Below, in pieces: positions 25,712 through 51,194 of a stretch of 64,000 nucleotides of DNA. This stretch comes from Mycobacterium sp. 155. GTDB taxonomy: Bacteria; Actinomycetota; Actinomycetes; Mycobacteriales; Mycobacteriaceae. The stretch spans positions 2,723,463-2,787,462 of the forward strand of contig NZ_KB892705.1 of assembly GCF_000373905.1 (NCBI RefSeq), written 5' to 3'. The translations under genes were made by a program, and so were the position numbers. Position 1 is the stretch's first letter. Every line of letters begins with the position of its first letter. The notes below the pieces were generated by a model. It was not told the origin of the DNA. It was given only the letters and a program-made list of their open reading frames with translations, and made no database searches.

Positions 25712-27334
25712 ATGGCCGGGACACGCGTCATCCCCGGATACGCACTACTGACGCTGATCCTGGCTGGAGCACTGCTCCTGGCCTCGGACCTGCGGGTTAC
25801 CCAAGCACCGGGCGTAAGGACTCCTATCGGCGGTCCTTACGCCCAGTTGCTTGCCGCCTCAACCGATCTTGGGCCTTCGCACCATGACTCGGTCCAGCTC
25901 ACAGTCGCCCTGCAGGGCCAGCACCGGCCGGCGGCGCTGTACACCTGGGCGGACGGCCGAGGGCTGTCGGTGCGATGGCGCGCCGGCGACCCGTGGGCCA
26001 TCATCGACGGCGCCCCCGCGGCCATGGCCGCTGCCTTCGGTGTCGACATCCATGATTACCGGGGTAGACGGGGCCAGGTGTTCTACGCCTCGCCGCAACA
26101 GCCGTCGACACCCGAACCGCTGCGCGGCGAGGTCGTCGAGGTCGGCCGTATCCTCAGCTACACCCCGCCCCGGATGTCCCGGCCGGACCTGTCGAACCTG
26201 CCCACCGACGTCCCCGACCGGGGGCTGACCCCGACGGCGCTGCTCAACACCTACAACTTGAGCGAGCTTGCACAGCAGGGCTACACCGGCAAGGGCACCA
26301 CCATCGTGATCTTCGCGTTCGACGGTTTCGACCAGACCGATCTGGACACCTTCGCCACCACCTTCAACCTGCCGAGGTTCACCCCCACCCTGATCGGCGG
26401 ACAGCCCAGCGAACCCCACGGCGAGACCACCATGGATCTGGAGGTCGCCCACGCCCTTGCGCCCGATGCGCGCAAGGTGGTGGTCAACGCTCGACCGACG
26501 GTCCAGGGAGACGGAGCCTACGAAAAGATCGGGCAGATGCTTCAAACGGCAGACTCCCAGTTCCCCGGTGCGGTCTGGAGCTTTTCCATCGGCTGGGGCT
26601 GCGACAAGCTGATCACCGCCGCCGATCTGGCCCCGGTCCGCTCCGCGCTGACCACAGCACACTCCCACGGCACCACGGCATTCAATGCCAGCGGCGACCT
26701 GGCCGGCCTGGAATGCAAAGGCGGACAAGACTGGTCGTCGCCTCCGGGACCCGACGACATCGGGTTGGACTCGGTCGCATCGCTGCCCGAGATCACCAAT
26801 GTCGGTGGCACCACGTTGTCCACCGATACGGACGGCGGTTGGCTGGCAGAACAGGCCTGGTTCGACGTACCGCTGACGCAGGGCACTGGCGGCGGGGTTT
26901 CGGCGCTGTTCGACCGACCGGACTGGCAGCGCGGTGTCACCGCGCCCGGCAGCACCGAAGCCGGCGGCGACCACAAGCGGCTCACCCCGGATGTGTCCGC
27001 GGTCGCCGACCCGTTCACCGGCGTGAAGATCGTGTTGAACAATCAGCTGCTGGTCGGTGGCGGCACGTCCCAGTCGGCGCCGCTGTGGGCCGGCATGGCC
27101 GCGGTGATGGATCAGTATCTGCTCGCCAACGGTGGCCGGGAGCTGGGTGATCTCAATCCGCTGCTGTACCGCATCGCTGCCGGGGCGCCACTGCCCGCCT
27201 TTCACGACGTCACGCTCGGTGGCAATGCGGTGGCCAATGCCGGGCCGGGCTACGACCTGGTGACCGGCCTCGGAACACCCAACGTGGACAACCTCGTCAA
27301 GAACATCCTTGTCTGGCAGAGAGCGAACCCATGA
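25712..27334 (+). CDS. Sedolisin-type (S53) serine carboxyl protease, exported
   Basis: 540 residues. A hydrophobic N-terminus ('YALLTLILAGALLLASDL') serves as signal or anchor. A pro-domain fragment (about 55-150) is followed by the S53 catalytic domain: E238 and D242 in 'PHGETTMDLEV', oxyanion Asp 329 in 'NASGDLAG', and the nucleophile Ser 453 in 'GGGTSQSAP'. The C-terminal Ca site is 'FHDVTLGG ... GPGYDLVTGLGTP'. The triad appears complete, so activity at low pH is expected; the substrate is unknown. Its stop overlaps an ATG (ATGA) that begins the first of two tiny ORFs leading into the zinc-ribbon membrane gene. Confidence 0.9.
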   Translation: MAGTRVIPGYALLTLILAGALLLASDLRVTQAPGVRTPIGGPYAQLLAASTDLGPSHHDSVQLTVALQGQHRPAALYTWADGRGLSVRWRAGDPWAIIDGAPAAMAAAFGVDIHDYRGRRGQVFYASPQQPSTPEPLRGEVVEVGRILSYTPPRMSRPDLSNLPTDVPDRGLTPTALLNTYNLSELAQQGYTGKGTTIVIFAFDGFDQTDLDTFATTFNLPRFTPTLIGGQPSEPHGETTMDLEVAHALAPDARKVVVNARPTVQGDGAYEKIGQMLQTADSQFPGAVWSFSIGWGCDKLITAADLAPVRSALTTAHSHGTTAFNASGDLAGLECKGGQDWSSPPGPDDIGLDSVASLPEITNVGGTTLSTDTDGGWLAEQAWFDVPLTQGTGGGVSALFDRPDWQRGVTAPGSTEAGGDHKRLTPDVSAVADPFTGVKIVLNNQLLVGGGTSQSAPLWAGMAAVMDQYLLANGGRELGDLNPLLYRIAAGAPLPAFHDVTLGGNAVANAGPGYDLVTGLGTPNVDNLVKNILVWQRANP

Positions 27335-27404
27335 ATAGCCGGCGAGAAGCGAAGGCGGGTCCCGCATGAATAGCCAGCGAGAAACGAAGGCGGGTCCCGC
27401 ATGA
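27331..27404 (+). repeat. Two tandem 35-bp units, each an ATG-started mini-ORF
   Basis: Units at 27331-27365 and 27366-27400 differ at two bases. Each begins with ATG and encodes a 12-residue peptide (MNSRREAKAGPA and MNSQRETKAGPA). Each is closed by a TGA that overlaps the next ATG (ATGA), at 27366-27369 and 27401-27404. The first ATG itself overlaps the protease stop. Ribosomes could thus pass by termination-reinitiation from the protease through both peptides to the zinc-ribbon gene. Confidence 0.8.
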
Positions 27405-29326
27405 AAACCGACCCAGGCCTCGTCGGTCCGGAGACGATGGAATGCGAGGTCTGCCAACTCGAGGTCCCCGCAGGGCGGTACTGCGGGCTCTGCGGCGCTC
27501 CGCTGTCGGACCACCGGGCCAACGGTCCGCACTGGCTGCGGGCGCGGTCTTTCAGCGCGGCTCCGGGACAGCATCTGCTGATCCCTTCGGTCGCCAGTTC
27601 GCTGTTCCCGCATCTGTCTCCACGGTCGCGGATGGCGTTCCTGGGCGGCCTGGCACTGCTGTTGGCGGCACTGGTGGCCGCTGCCCTGTTCCGGCTGCCT
27701 GCCGCACTCATCGCCGTCGCCTCGCTGGGTCTGCCTCTGCTGTTCGGAATCTACCTGCGGGAGTCCGACGTTCATCGCGACGTCCCGAGCAGCACCCTGG
27801 TCCTCACCGCACTGCTGGGCGCGGGTCTCGGGATCGGCTGGGTGCTGTTGACCGGTGAGGCGATGGCCCGCGTGTACGGCGTCCCGCTGGGCATGGGTAT
27901 CGCCGGGTCGCGCATGCTGCGCGAGAGCATCGGGGTGTCCTTGGGCGGCATGGTGTTGATGCTGGTACCCGCGCTGGTAGTGCGCTTCACCCGTCGGGGA
28001 ACACAAGAAGCGTTGGACGGCTACGCAATCGGCGCGTTCGGCGCGCTGACCTATTGTGCTGCGGCGACGATGACGCGCCTGGCGCCGCAGTTCACCACCG
28101 GCATGGTGGCCCGCGACCGGCCGATGAGCGGGCTGCTGGTCGAGGCCGGGATCCGCGGTGTCGCGGTACCGACGATCGCTGTCGCGGTGGGCGGGCTGAT
28201 CGGTGCAGCGCTATGGTTCACCAGACCACCCAACAAGGTTCACGTACACCGCGGGTTCGTCCGTATCACCCTGACCCTGTTCGCGGTCGGGGTGATGATC
28301 CTCTACGCCGGGCTCGGCCTGATCGACATTGCGCGATTCCCGCAGTGGCTGCAGTTCGGGCTGTACATCGCCTTGGCAGCGATCGCGCTGCTACTCCTGC
28401 GGCTCGGTGTGCATCTGGCGCTGCTGCACGAGGCCCAGGATGAGATCCACACCGATGAGCCGCTGCTGTGCATCCAATGCGGACATGTCGTGCCCGACGC
28501 TCCTTTCTGCGCACACTGCGGTGCGGCCATCCATGCCTCGTCGCGCAGTTCGCGCAAAGCCCGCAGAACGGGCCGGCCGATACGTCAGGGCGAGCCAGGG
28601 GAGATCACGGTCGGGCTGCTGCCCGGCTACTCGATCCACAAGGGGGCGTTCACCGCTGCGCCCGTGCACAAGACGTCGTACACCAGGTTGGCTCTGGCCC
28701 TCGGGGTCGTCATCGTCGTCGCGGCGGCCGGGTTGGTCGGCCTCTCGGCGGTACTGCAGAAGCCGGCGGCACGCTACGTGTGCCCGCCGAACTGTGGCTC
28801 GCCACCGTTCGGACAACCCGTCACCATCAACCCTCTGTACACGGCGGCCGACGGCTCGTTCACCGTGTCGTATCCGGCCGCGGGGTCGGCCTACAAGGTC
28901 AGCACCAATGATCACGGCGTGATGGCGAACCTGCTGGCCGGCGACGGGGGCACCATGCAGCTGTTCAGCAAGCCGGCGGCCGGCAAATCACCGAAAGACA
29001 TTGCCGTCCAACTGGTTCGCCAGACATTCCCGGACACCAAGACCGCCTACGAGATACCCAACACGATGGTGGGCTATCAGCCCGGGTTCGGACTTACCGC
29101 CGACTACTGGCCACAGGGCTCGACCAGCAGCTACGCCCGGATGCGCGTAATCATCATGGTGGCGGTCAAACATGATCTCGCGCTCATTGCCGCGGCCGTC
29201 GGGCCCTACCGCAAGTTCGGTCCGGACTCGGGTTCCGGCAAGCCGTCAGGCGCCAACCTGCAGCTCGCGCTAGATATGGGTAAGTATGTCAACAGTTTTC
29301 GCTGGCGTGGAGACCCCAGCCGGTAG
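27401..29326 (+). CDS. Zinc-ribbon multi-pass membrane protein, function unknown
   Basis: 641 residues. An N-terminal zinc ribbon (C15, C18, C28, C31 in 'CEVCQLEVPAGRYCGLCG') is followed by about eight to nine membrane helices from residue 75 to 345 and a second ribbon near 355-375 ('CIQCGHVVPDAPFCAHCG'). A further helix ('LALALGVVIVVAAAGLVGL') precedes a roughly 190-residue extracytoplasmic domain ending 'KYVNSFRWRGDPSR'. No catalytic motif is recognised. It follows the S53 protease through two tiny coupled ORFs, so the two proteins may work together at the membrane. The start at ATG 27401 is forced by the third ATGA overlap. Confidence 0.75.
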   Translation: MKTDPGLVGPETMECEVCQLEVPAGRYCGLCGAPLSDHRANGPHWLRARSFSAAPGQHLLIPSVASSLFPHLSPRSRMAFLGGLALLLAALVAAALFRLPAALIAVASLGLPLLFGIYLRESDVHRDVPSSTLVLTALLGAGLGIGWVLLTGEAMARVYGVPLGMGIAGSRMLRESIGVSLGGMVLMLVPALVVRFTRRGTQEALDGYAIGAFGALTYCAAATMTRLAPQFTTGMVARDRPMSGLLVEAGIRGVAVPTIAVAVGGLIGAALWFTRPPNKVHVHRGFVRITLTLFAVGVMILYAGLGLIDIARFPQWLQFGLYIALAAIALLLLRLGVHLALLHEAQDEIHTDEPLLCIQCGHVVPDAPFCAHCGAAIHASSRSSRKARRTGRPIRQGEPGEITVGLLPGYSIHKGAFTAAPVHKTSYTRLALALGVVIVVAAAGLVGLSAVLQKPAARYVCPPNCGSPPFGQPVTINPLYTAADGSFTVSYPAAGSAYKVSTNDHGVMANLLAGDGGTMQLFSKPAAGKSPKDIAVQLVRQTFPDTKTAYEIPNTMVGYQPGFGLTADYWPQGSTSSYARMRVIIMVAVKHDLALIAAAVGPYRKFGPDSGSGKPSGANLQLALDMGKYVNSFRWRGDPSR

Positions 29327-31098: not shown

Positions 31099-33123
31099 TC
31101 ACATCTTGATCGCCGGTATCAGCCTGTTGAGGTTCCACAGTCGGTCTCGCCGGGCGGACAGACAGGAGATCGTCATCGCTCCTATCCAGATGATCACGAG
31201 CGCGACGATGGCCTGCCACAGCCGGAAGTCGATCCCGCCGAGGATGAGCTGGCGTAAGCCATTGACGCCGTAGGTCATCGGGTCGTACTTGTGGATCACC
31301 TGGAAGGGCTTCGACGTGGTTTCGACGGGATACATGCCGCCGGCACTCACCAACTGCAGCATCAGCAACGCCATCACCAGCACGCGCCCCACCACCGGCC
31401 CGACGAGGGCGTTGATCGCCTGCGTGGCAGCGACGAACGTACACGAGATCAACACCATGAACCCGAGCATCGCGACTGGGTGCGCGGCGTGCATACCGAG
31501 GGCGAACCGCACCACGCAGTACAGGATGACGGCCTGGCAGAACCCGATCATCGCCGCGGGCAGGTAACTGGCGAGCACCACCCGGATCGCCAGCACCTCC
31601 GCGGCGACAGCACGACTCTGCAGGGGCCGCAGGATCATCCACAGCACCAAAGCACCGAAGAACAAGGCCAGAGTGAGGAAGAACGGCGCCATGCCGGTGC
31701 CGAAGTTGGGTGCGGCGTTCTCGTGTGAGGTTTCGAGATTGACCGGGCCGCCGATCGTGTCGGCGATCGCATTCTTCTGCTGGGCGCTCCAGTCGGGAAC
31801 CTGCTTGGCGCCTTCGGCGAGTTTGGTCGCCAGCTCGGCCGACCCCGACCGCAGCTGAGCGGTGCCCGATTTGAGCTGGGTCGCACCGTCGTCGAGTTTG
31901 ACGATACCGCTGGCCAATTCTGCGCTGCCCGAGGACAGCTGCTGTGCTCCGCTACGGAGTTGCGTCAGCTTGTTGTCGAGGTCCCGGCCCGTGCCACCAA
32001 CTTGGTTGAGCGCGGAGTTGAGCGGGCTGCCGGGAGCGCGCAGCGCCGTGGTCATCGAGATGGCCGCGTTCTCGGCGTCAGTGAGCTGCTGACGGACCTG
32101 CGGGGTGAACTGGTGACCGCGCAGCTGGTCCTGGATCCCGCGTAGGGTTCCGGCGGCGTTGTTGGCCAAGGGATCCGGGCTCGCGGATAACTGGTCGATC
32201 ACCGTGGTCAACGAATCAGCAGCGGCGTCCTGCGCCGTCGCGATGCCACCGATCTGGTCGTTGGCCTGCTGCAGCGCGGTTGCGCCCTGCTGTAGCTGGT
32301 CGGTGTTGCCGCCGATCTGCGACAGCGCCCTGGTCACTGTGACCAATGGATCGGTGGCCTTGATGATCCCGTCGGAGAGCTGCTTGGCACCAGCGGCGAC
32401 CTGCGCCGAACCAGAGCGAGCGGTGTGCAGGCCCGCCGCCAGCTGCCCGGCGCCGTCATCGACTTTCACCGCCCCGTCGGCAAGCTGCTGGGCGCCGTCG
32501 GCGGCTTGCCTGATGCCCGCCCCGGACGAAACCACCACTGACAGCACCTGATTGACCGCCTGCCCGGAGATCCGGGTGGAAACGGCATTGAGCACCTGGT
32601 CGACGGCGGTGCGTCCGATACTCGACGAGATGTAGTTGTTGGCGTCGTTGTACACCGCAATCAGGTTCGCCCGCTTGGGTTCCCCGGTCACGGGCGACGC
32701 GATCGCCTCACTGAAGTTCGGCGGCAACTCGAGCATGAAGTAGTACTTGCCGTGGTCGACGCCCTGACGGGCCTCATCGAGGTCCATCACGTGCCAGTCC
32801 AGGCTGGCATCATCGGTGAGACTCTTGGCGATCTCGTCGCCCGCGTTGATCTTCTGCCCGGAAACCACGGTCCCCCGGTCGGAATTGACCAGCGCGACAG
32901 GCATCTTGTTGACGTGACCGAACGGGTCCCAGTACGCCCACAGATACAGCGCACCGTAGACCAGTGGCAGCAACATCAGCACGACGATCGCCAGCCGGGT
33001 CATCCGGCTGCGGCCGAAGCGCTTGATCTCCGAGCCGAGTGCGAGCCCAGCCAGCGGGGATGAGCCGCTTGCGCGAAGACCTTTCAGCGGGGATGAGCCG
33101 CTTGCGCGAAGACCGTTTAGCAT
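31099..33123 (-). CDS. YhgE/Pip-type membrane export protein
   Basis: 674 residues. An N-terminal membrane helix ('LAIVVLMLLPLVYGALYLW') is followed by the YhgE/Pip hallmark 'HVNKMPVALVNSDRG'. A long external helical region of repeated 'QLADGA', 'QLSSGSAELASG' and 'QLKSGTAQLRSG' heptads (about 200-430) leads to five or six C-terminal helices resembling ABC-2 permeases. Related proteins act in export of envelope or toxin-like substrates. It probably pairs with the degenerate ABC protein 15 nt upstream. The N-terminus carries an 11-residue tandem duplication. The substrate is unknown. Confidence 0.85.
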   Translation of the reverse strand: MLNGLRASGSSPLKGLRASGSSPLAGLALGSEIKRFGRSRMTRLAIVVLMLLPLVYGALYLWAYWDPFGHVNKMPVALVNSDRGTVVSGQKINAGDEIAKSLTDDASLDWHVMDLDEARQGVDHGKYYFMLELPPNFSEAIASPVTGEPKRANLIAVYNDANNYISSSIGRTAVDQVLNAVSTRISGQAVNQVLSVVVSSGAGIRQAADGAQQLADGAVKVDDGAGQLAAGLHTARSGSAQVAAGAKQLSDGIIKATDPLVTVTRALSQIGGNTDQLQQGATALQQANDQIGGIATAQDAAADSLTTVIDQLSASPDPLANNAAGTLRGIQDQLRGHQFTPQVRQQLTDAENAAISMTTALRAPGSPLNSALNQVGGTGRDLDNKLTQLRSGAQQLSSGSAELASGIVKLDDGATQLKSGTAQLRSGSAELATKLAEGAKQVPDWSAQQKNAIADTIGGPVNLETSHENAAPNFGTGMAPFFLTLALFFGALVLWMILRPLQSRAVAAEVLAIRVVLASYLPAAMIGFCQAVILYCVVRFALGMHAAHPVAMLGFMVLISCTFVAATQAINALVGPVVGRVLVMALLMLQLVSAGGMYPVETTSKPFQVIHKYDPMTYGVNGLRQLILGGIDFRLWQAIVALVIIWIGAMTISCLSARRDRLWNLNRLIPAIKM
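33053..33118 (-). repeat. Tandem 33-bp duplication at the start of the YhgE-type gene
   Basis: Units 33053-33085 and 33086-33118 differ only in the last few bases. In frame they encode 'GLRASGSSPLK' and 'GLRASGSSPLA' directly after MLN, ahead of the conserved 'GLALGSEIKRFGRSRM'. The unit reads 'TCTTCGCGCAAGCGGCTC' and so on in the coding direction. Confidence 0.82.
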
Positions 33124-45579: not shown

Positions 45580-47130
45580 ATGATCACCACCCGTAGCCAG
45601 CGGCTTGCCGCTGCAAGCTTGATGTCGGCCGCCCTCCTGATGAACACCATGAATGGTGCGATTGCCTCCGCGGATTCCGAGTCCGACCCCACCTCAGGTG
45701 CGAGTCAGGAGAACTCCAGCAGTTCGGCCGGTGACGCCAGCGACCGCAACGTCACGAGCACGGCTGTTTCAGGCCCAAGCACCGACAAACCCCGCTCCAC
45801 ACTCTCCGCACAGACGAACACCTCGACTCAAACGGCGGATACGGCCGACGCGGCGGATAAGACAGACACCACACCGTCAACCACCAAAGCGTCAGCGGAT
45901 CCACCCAGCGCAGACCGCAACATCACCACCACGACGACTTCCGGAGCCGGCCCCAACAAACCCCGCTCCACACTCTCCGCACAGACGAACACCTCCACTC
46001 AAACGGCGGATAAGACAGACACCACACCGTCAACCACCAAAGCGTCAGCAGATCCACCCAGCGCAGACCCCGGCATCACCACCACGACGACTTCCGGAAC
46101 CGACCCCAACAAACCCCGCTCCGCACTCTCCACGGAGACGGACACAGCCACGCCATCAGGCGCACAAGGCGTGTCAGACAACTCCGGCCAAGCTGCAGCT
46201 GAACCGATAGCCTTCACCAAAGCGGTGGAAGCCCTGCTCGCCGCGGCCGACCAGCAGGTCCCGGCAATTCCACTTCCCATTCCGGCCACCAAGATCACGC
46301 CGAGCGCCGCCTCCGGGAACAAATCGACCGTCGCGGAGGCACCGAACGATTCCGACATCGCCAAATCCGCGCAGCCGTCGACTTCCTCAACGAGGGTCAC
46401 CGTGACGTCTGACGTCGACACTGCCGTCACAGCGGTCGCTGAGGTGGCTGCATCGACGTCAATAGCCGAGATAATCGCGAAGGCCGCGACAGTGGCGGTT
46501 CAGTACGCCGTCATCTGCCTCATGCGGACATTGGCGACAGCCTCCAATTTCGTCCACGCCATCTTGCAGCTACCAGCAACTATCCGCGACATACTCGCCA
46601 CCCTGTGGATCACATCCAGTGTCGAGAGCCACCACGGGCTCTTTTCCGCCTCGGACGGCGGGCCCCTGAACCTGACCGCGCCGGCGAGTGTCCAGGACAG
46701 TTCGCCAGGTACCGTCGGCAGCTCCCTGGCGGTCGATCGCGGAGGCATAGAGGTGGACGGCGGGATCGTGCTGTTGGCCTCGTTGCAGCCGCAGTCAGCC
46801 GCATCGACGCTCGCCAAGGCGACGCCTCCGGGTCACTCGACATTGAGTCTGATAAAGAACGCGATCGCTGCCGTCGCGGTGTCGGTGTCGATATGGGCGC
46901 TGCTGTATGCCGCATTGCCAGGCCTGGGCGGCTTCCTCTCCTTCGGGGCAATCGGCGTGCGGATCGGCTATCGCCAGTCCAGCGCCGGAATCGCCTTGCG
47001 CAGCCCGGAATTGGCGCGTTTCGTGCGATCCGGGCCTATCGGCGTCGCACGTACCGGATCATTGGTTTCCGTTCATGTCCGCACCGCAGATGCCAACCAC
47101 ACGACCCGGCACCTTCAACGCATCGCCTAG
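45580..47130 (+). CDS. Repeat-rich exported surface protein
   Basis: 516 residues from ATG 45580 (GAGGAG six nt upstream). A signal peptide ('LAAASLMSAALLMNTMNGAIASA') precedes a Ser/Thr/Asp-rich, probably disordered stretch with two and a half copies of a ~51-residue repeat ('NKPRSTLSAQTNTSTQTAD', 'KTDTTPSTTKASADPPSAD'). A less ordered middle leads to a hydrophobic helix pair near 320-350 and a C-terminal hydrophobic module 'ALLYAALPGLGGFLSFGAIGVRIGYRQ', ending in a conserved-looking basic tail. It is probably envelope-attached and perhaps O-mannosylated. The function is unknown. Confidence 0.7.
   Translation: MITTRSQRLAAASLMSAALLMNTMNGAIASADSESDPTSGASQENSSSSAGDASDRNVTSTAVSGPSTDKPRSTLSAQTNTSTQTADTADAADKTDTTPSTTKASADPPSADRNITTTTTSGAGPNKPRSTLSAQTNTSTQTADKTDTTPSTTKASADPPSADPGITTTTTSGTDPNKPRSALSTETDTATPSGAQGVSDNSGQAAAEPIAFTKAVEALLAAADQQVPAIPLPIPATKITPSAASGNKSTVAEAPNDSDIAKSAQPSTSSTRVTVTSDVDTAVTAVAEVAASTSIAEIIAKAATVAVQYAVICLMRTLATASNFVHAILQLPATIRDILATLWITSSVESHHGLFSASDGGPLNLTAPASVQDSSPGTVGSSLAVDRGGIEVDGGIVLLASLQPQSAASTLAKATPPGHSTLSLIKNAIAAVAVSVSIWALLYAALPGLGGFLSFGAIGVRIGYRQSSAGIALRSPELARFVRSGPIGVARTGSLVSVHVRTADANHTTRHLQRIA
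45742..46150 (+). repeat. In-frame 153-bp tandem repeats in the surface gene
   Basis: A complete unit at 45909-46061 (153 bp, 51 codons) is followed by a partial unit from 46062. It is preceded by a unit from about 45742 that has an eight-residue insertion (TADTADAA). Runs such as 'aaaccccgctccacactctc' are identical between units, pointing to recent duplication. Confidence 0.85.
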
Positions 47131-50889: not shown

Positions 50890-51194
50890 GATGGAAGCCC
50901 TCCACTTGTCGGGGTGTGGATCCGGGGGTATCCCAGATGCCGATTACCAGGTGTTCGTGGCATGCGCCCGTGCCCTCGCTCCGTCGTCGCGGGTGCCGGC
51001 GCTGGGGTTGGCCGCGTGCCACCTAGCACTCTATACATGCGAGTGCTAGCACTCAAGGTTGGGCTGTGACTATTTGGTCGTTTGTTCATTCACAGCGAAC
51101 ACAGTGGCGGTGCAGGTCGCGTCACAGCAGCCGGTGATCTCCAGCTTGTCCGCGGCAGTGCCGATGCGCGATCCGCCCGCGGCTTCTCGCTGGC
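50890..51194. other. Intergenic region groES-tsaD
   Basis: 305 nt holding the groES leader and CIRCE promoter. The rest (51060-51194) lies just beyond the tsaD stop, and no gene or strong terminator was seen there. Confidence 0.5.
51023..51049 (-). promoter_or_regulatory. CIRCE element (HrcA operator) of groES-groEL1
   Basis: 'CTAGCACTC'-N9-'GAGTGCTAG' is a perfect inverted repeat and matches the CIRCE consensus TTAGCACTC-N9-GAGTGCTAA except at the outermost bases. A TATAGA -10-like hexamer on the minus strand lies across its spacer, so HrcA would block RNA polymerase. A third half-site follows at 51045-51054. Confidence 0.93.

Follow-up and report, generated by a model that had tools for sequence, protein, structure and literature searches.

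Between the genes for a protease and a membrane protein in Mycobacterium sp. 155 lies a tandem array of 35-bp units, which are very probably copies of a small non-autonomous mobile repeat, similar to the mycobacterial interspersed repetitive units (MIRUs), that inserted at a coupled start codon. Ribosomes would cross the inserted DNA by termination-reinitiation, which would explain why the insertion is tolerated. The window, that is, the whole stretch of DNA that was analysed, spans 64,000 nucleotides of contig NZ_KB892705.1, and coordinates given below are those of the window.

The first unit (27331..27365, + strand, ATGAATAGCCGGCGAGAAGCGAAGGCGGGTCCCGC) consists of ATGA and seven variable bases (11 nt), followed by a purine-rich 24-nt core (27342..27365, + strand). 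Translated from the letters, it encodes the peptide MNSRREAKAGPA, which ends at a TGA stop at 27367-27369. The second unit (27366..27400, + strand, ATGAATAGCCAGCGAGAAACGAAGGCGGGTCCCGC) is identical to the first at 33 of 35 positions, with two differences, and its 24-nt core lies at 27377..27400 (+ strand). It encodes MNSQRETKAGPA, and its TGA stop (27402-27404) overlaps the start of the membrane-protein gene; the letters at 27401 are ATGAAAACC. The chain runs from the protease TGA/ATG through one 12-aa ORF to a TGA/ATG, and through another 12-aa ORF to the TGA/ATG of the membrane gene. Tandem Repeats Finder gives the array a score of 138 at period 35; the only higher score among its 55 rows for the window belongs to a 153-bp direct repeat at 45851-46145 (1.9 copies, 92% matches). 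The letters, the ORFs and Tandem Repeats Finder bear out the two tandem 35-bp units with ATGA-coupled 12-residue ORFs that a preliminary description of this DNA had reported.

The upstream gene (25712..27334, + strand) encodes an S53 (sedolisin/kumamolisin-like) serine-carboxyl protease according to its ORF and phmmer, and its stop TGA (27332-27334) falls inside the first ATGA. The label of S53 protease had been proposed before and is confirmed by the phmmer match of the ORF to kumamolisin-As (1sio_A, E = 1.4e-33), though Pfam and NCBIfam gave no match at E 0.001. The downstream ORF (27401..29326, + strand) opens on the ATG of the third ATGA. It encodes a membrane protein that matched no family in Pfam or NCBIfam; its putative zinc ribbons are read from two CxxC...CxxC motifs.

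The repeat is dispersed across the genus. A pattern derived from the core, with up to three mismatches allowed, matched in 162 of 396 same-genus genomes, and the reversed-pattern control gave 0 matches. Because this query ended in ATGA, the search was repeated with the core only: 54 of 118 genomes matched, and the reversed control produced one match each in three of the 118. Of 30 loci from the core-only search, 25 carry DTGA on both sides of the core, three on one side and two on neither; two of the 30 look like chance matches. In a named collection 103 stretches matched; those listed (80) come from Mycobacterium or Mycolicibacterium records and from a few actinobacterial MAGs. Viral contigs held no match to the exact pattern, and carriage of the repeat by phages was set aside on this ground.

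The genome of Mycobacterium sp. 155 itself holds a second complete single unit (C1:3885153-3885191), placed exactly on the ATGA between two other genes. A model built from sequence only (R1) found at least 13 matches at E < 0.001 in nine places of this genome (150 of 3871 candidates scored), diverged copies among them. A possible decayed copy lies in the window at 51164..51194 on the - strand, directly after a stop codon and with its ATGA lost (ATCGG), although the R1 match is weak (E = 0.0077). The recurrence of the core throughout the genus, with a reversed control of 0, and the second copy in a like junction of the same genome place the ATGA chain noted earlier beyond chance.

These observations also bear on the suggestion that the repeat is simply a duplicated initiation region, produced by local slippage with no mobile element involved. 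The two window units are indeed tandem and nearly identical, and they appear to have been homogenised, because the end of the core of unit 2 is unit-1-like in the window and family-consensus-like in Mycobacterium sp. 141. Slippage would account for the tandem copy, however, and not for the first unit, and the same core stands before 51 downstream-gene families and in the 162 genomes already mentioned. We regard this explanation as scarcely credible; the genus-wide search rules out local duplication alone as the origin, and the unit is instead a dispersed, apparently mobile repeat that was inserted and then tandemly duplicated.

The count of 51 families comes from gapped clustering of the genes at whose starts 118 arrays sit; these arrays derive from 115 fetched regions and the window, among the matches listed in the genus-wide search, and three with a short downstream frame (L125, L129 and L160) were left out of the clustering. 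One family, MrpF-like by Pfam at L078, bears the element before the gene at 13 fetched loci with one to six units (L078, L099, L100, L111, L116, L122, L157, L158, L163, L165, L167, L177 and L179), which may reflect either recurrent or retained insertion at one junction.

Across the arrays, each unit opens with DTGA, as a rule followed by seven variable bases, and closes with the 24-nt core, of which GCGAGAAGCGAAGGCGGATCGCGC and GCGAGAAGCGAAGCGGGATCGCGC are the common forms. The segment before the core measures 11 nt in 84 of 112 arrays, giving 35-bp units, and 8 nt in nine of them, giving 32-bp units; the other six of the 118 arrays, with no DTGA close upstream, were set aside in the frame tests. 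In 97 of the 112 arrays, the chain of mini-ORFs that begins at the first DTGA has its stop precisely at the downstream start. In nine arrays the chain stops slightly inside the gene, with a stop codon that starts five bases in (ATGAxTAA or ATGAxTGA), in two it lies within a few bases of the downstream start, and in three the chain is fused in frame to the gene (L097, L142 and L166); a single array (L069) fits no frame pattern. When one site per downstream family is counted, the frame is exact in 43 of 48 cases (0.326 expected from three frames, P = 3e-16), and the stop of the chain lies at most eight bases from the downstream start in 45 of 48.

When GC3 is compared between the three frames upstream of the array, the frame closing on the first DTGA comes highest in 98 of the 112 arrays, 91 of which are free of stops in this frame; the corresponding counts with one site per family are 40 of 48 and 38. 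The frame and GC3 results therefore place most units in coupled junctions. There are exceptions that have no overlapping upstream gene, for example L323 and L068. A gene for an XPB-type helicase follows the unit at L068, L072, L114, L152 and L169 (assigned by Pfam for L068), and at several of these loci the DNA directly upstream has the look of a promoter and not of the end of a gene. At two loci, L142 (an allophanate hydrolase-like gene) and L328, the second ATG is lost and the unit reads in frame into the gene; the host protein apparently now begins with residues encoded by the repeat.

An empty counterpart was found for the second site of the Mycobacterium sp. 155 genome (L339). Where this genome holds a 35-bp unit, a relative (L340) has the plain junction ...GCGC-ATGAGCCCAGACGG, and 29 other loci at this site have no unit in the 75 bases upstream. 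At 21 other protease/membrane junctions from the first search for relatives, several of which are paralogues, no unit was present; in 18 of them the two genes overlap by DTGA. The two most similar of them (L004 and L005, 70 and 65%) have a TGATG overlap, not ATGA.

The comparison of copy number among relatives that the preliminary description had put forward was carried out for the window junction and gave zero, one (32 or 35 bp) or two units (two at L196, one each at L232, L215 and L241). Two units stand there in Mycobacterium sp. 141 (94.9% over 5 kb), and Mycobacterium sp. 852013-50091 (86%) has a single 35-bp unit whose first 11 bases are exactly those of the gene start. Mycobacterium sp. 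ST-F2 and a MAG (about 69-70%) carry one 32-bp unit each; the unit-bearing relatives were found through the repeat itself and are not a census. Arrays elsewhere have one to six units.

Such variation, with one stop/start step added by each unit, would be in keeping with selection on copy number to adjust, through extra reinitiation steps, how much membrane protein is made relative to protease, a tuning role that had been proposed for the window array. However, a single unit is the commonest state (153 of 222 arrays, in a set that includes repeated genomes), and the placement of the element before 51 gene families in 118 arrays, among the matches listed, is as expected of a tolerated insertion. 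We consider a selected tuning device unlikely. Taken as a whole, the earlier reading of the locus is partly supported.

Insertion of a mobile repeat appears to have left a duplication. In the 11-nt class, with one site per family (n = 39), the fifth base of the first unit, which follows DTGA, is the same as the corresponding base of the downstream gene in 30 of 39 cases. Permutation gives an expectation of 15.2 (z = 5.2), and 30 was not reached in any of 10,000 permutations. Bases 6 and 7 give a hint only (P = 0.06 and 0.10) and bases 8-11 no signal; base 1 stood outside this test, being fixed on one side by the query. The pattern fits a short target duplication, DTGAN, on insertion, and gene conversion inside arrays could be a source of part of the base-5 signal. 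A duplication of the full 11 bp was considered and rejected, the permutation test backing base 5 only; exact 11-bp duplications number two among the 118 arrays (L077 and L098), in addition to the window junction of L232.

These figures depend in part on the clustering. An ungapped version (63 families), which had split some genes shifted by one residue and was replaced by the gapped one, gave stronger values: 53 of 59 exact frames, a match at base 5 in 34 of 44 cases, and P = 0.016 and 0.048 for bases 6 and 7. A looser clustering on translated DNA was discarded as over-merged, with 103 of the 118 arrays in one group. Its 14 groups gave 13 exact frames and a match at base 5 in nine of 11 cases (P = 0.016), with no signal at the other bases.

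The open frame of the unit keeps its start and its stop, and small proteins are common in mycobacteria; the 12-residue peptide might accordingly be a functional small protein or a leader peptide. Departures from the core consensus in the 118 arrays, which are clustered in few columns, number 106, 111 and 25 at codon positions 1, 2 and 3, or 50, 43 and 12 with one site per family. The peptide is not conserved: it is the first and second codon positions that take most of the changes, and constraint on a protein would give the reverse pattern. Its first residues also vary between sites. A functional peptide is highly improbable on this evidence, and the lack of conservation points to ribosome passage rather than a peptide product. 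The reading of the repeat as an RNA hairpin is likewise unsupported: RNAalifold on the family gave four pairs, none changed on both sides, at -2.6 kcal/mol, and no conserved fold.

The core could also have been kept as a portable translation enhancer, that is, a purine-rich, fresh ribosome-binding site for the downstream gene. Duplex energies were computed with letters that we take to be the anti-Shine-Dalgarno tail. With them, the core of unit 1 reaches about -9.3 kcal/mol, and in the region -20 to -4 the units average -6.84, close to native upstream regions (-7.07) and well apart from random positions (-3.15). Shuffled cores score -7.83, however, at least as good as real cores, so the Shine-Dalgarno-like energy reflects purine composition, and no ordered motif is evident. 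An enhancer selected as such is, in our view, distinctly unlikely.

We therefore return to the mobile repeat, for which we propose the following course of events. One 35-bp unit would have landed exactly at the ATGA shared by the protease stop and the membrane-protein start, duplicating the gene start (DTGA and the next base). The old start would then open an ORF of 12 codons, and the TGA of this ORF would overlap the start that the insertion restored to the gene proper; at the window junction the unit would later have been duplicated in tandem. A ribosome that ends the protease could reinitiate at the successive ATGAs and still arrive at the membrane gene. Each unit would add a purine-rich stretch, at the spacing usual for a Shine-Dalgarno sequence and with a pairing energy like that of native sites. 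Further tandem units would keep the chain intact because the unit length is 2 mod 3. Dispersal, placement at start codons, the frame rule, empty sites, the duplication signature, differing copy number and the lack of peptide conservation are all visible in the sequences; we infer both the actual reinitiation of ribosomes on the mini-ORFs and the transposition of the element.

A broader reading, to which we give about even chances, is that the units represent a genus-wide family of tiny mobile repeats that seek start codons. Their 24-nt core would duplicate DTGAN, bring a purine-rich ribosome-binding stretch and a stop/start relay, spread through unrelated operons while leaving them expressed, and in some cases become the N-terminus of a host protein. 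A mobile repeat that occupies the start codon, where a gene is most sensitive, may stay tolerable by acting as a ribosome relay. With many insertions at the same genes, one to six copies and empty counterparts, the family could serve as a natural library for the efficiency of chained ATGA reinitiation in mycobacteria. It also calls for caution in annotation, since units create short ORFs or altered N-termini, and it raises the question of what moves such elements.

The window holds a second short repeat (33052-33121, 33 bp x 2.1, + strand ATGAGCCGCTTGCGCGAAGACC...), which belongs to a separate interspersed family. This family has 18 matches in the same genome and occurs in 21 of 61 genomes searched (that of Mycobacterium sp. 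155 included), with a reversed control of 0 and periods of 32, 33 and 34. In the window a minus-strand ORF (31099..33123) includes the repeat in frame at its 5' end, where it is translated as (N/K)GLRASGSSPL repeats; at some other loci the repeat lies directly upstream of ORFs.

In the open-access literature searched we found no description of the 35-bp family; an earlier description elsewhere is possible. The closest known elements are the MIRUs, reportedly going back to Supply in 1997. They are defined by an internal ORF whose ends overlap the neighbouring genes, and DTGA is a term used for them. The 35-bp family likewise consists of interspersed direct repeats at multiple loci with variable tandem copy number, and the ORF within the unit overlaps both neighbours, with the exact chains counted above (97 of 112, and 43 of 48 with one site per family). 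Its units stand at start codons with a -4 overlap, as seen from DTGA on both sides at 25 of 30 core-only loci and from the empty site at L340. A review describes MIRUs as mobile and as inserting at start codons with -4 spacing, which preserves coupling, the same logic as proposed here for the 35-bp unit (PMC12548453). Accounts of their host range conflict in the parts of the papers at hand, one giving 'many mycobacteria' (PMC12548453) and the other limiting them to M. leprae and the M. tuberculosis complex (PMC4213456); the 35-bp family is found in Mycolicibacterium and other Mycobacterium records. A MIRU can also make up the entire 5' UTR of a gene whose counterparts elsewhere are leaderless, according to the accessible portion of PMC4128351. 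The length given for MIRUs in the available part of PMC2734929 is 40-100 bp, whereas units of the present family mostly measure 35 or 32 bp. Because of this difference in length, and with the comparison made by description only, we call the family MIRU-like and not MIRU.

Two further mycobacterial systems share features with the array. In uPPE2-PPE2 of M. tuberculosis, an AUGA overlap works mainly by termination-reinitiation, and translation of the downstream gene depends on the short upstream ORF, as the available sections of PMC11260477 describe. The stop of a short ORF overlaps the next start by AUGA there, as in the 35-bp units; that system, however, has a single uORF under a riboswitch, whereas the present family consists of dispersed, repeated and chained units known here from sequence alone. 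ETR-F / VNTR3239, upstream of fpg in M. tuberculosis, resembles the 35-bp array in being made of tandem repeats between two genes, and the flanking genes are nearly contiguous in other mycobacteria (PMC2734929, in the portion available). Its composite units are longer, at 55 and 79 bp, and the chain of ATGA mini-ORFs that marks the present family is absent from that portion of their description.
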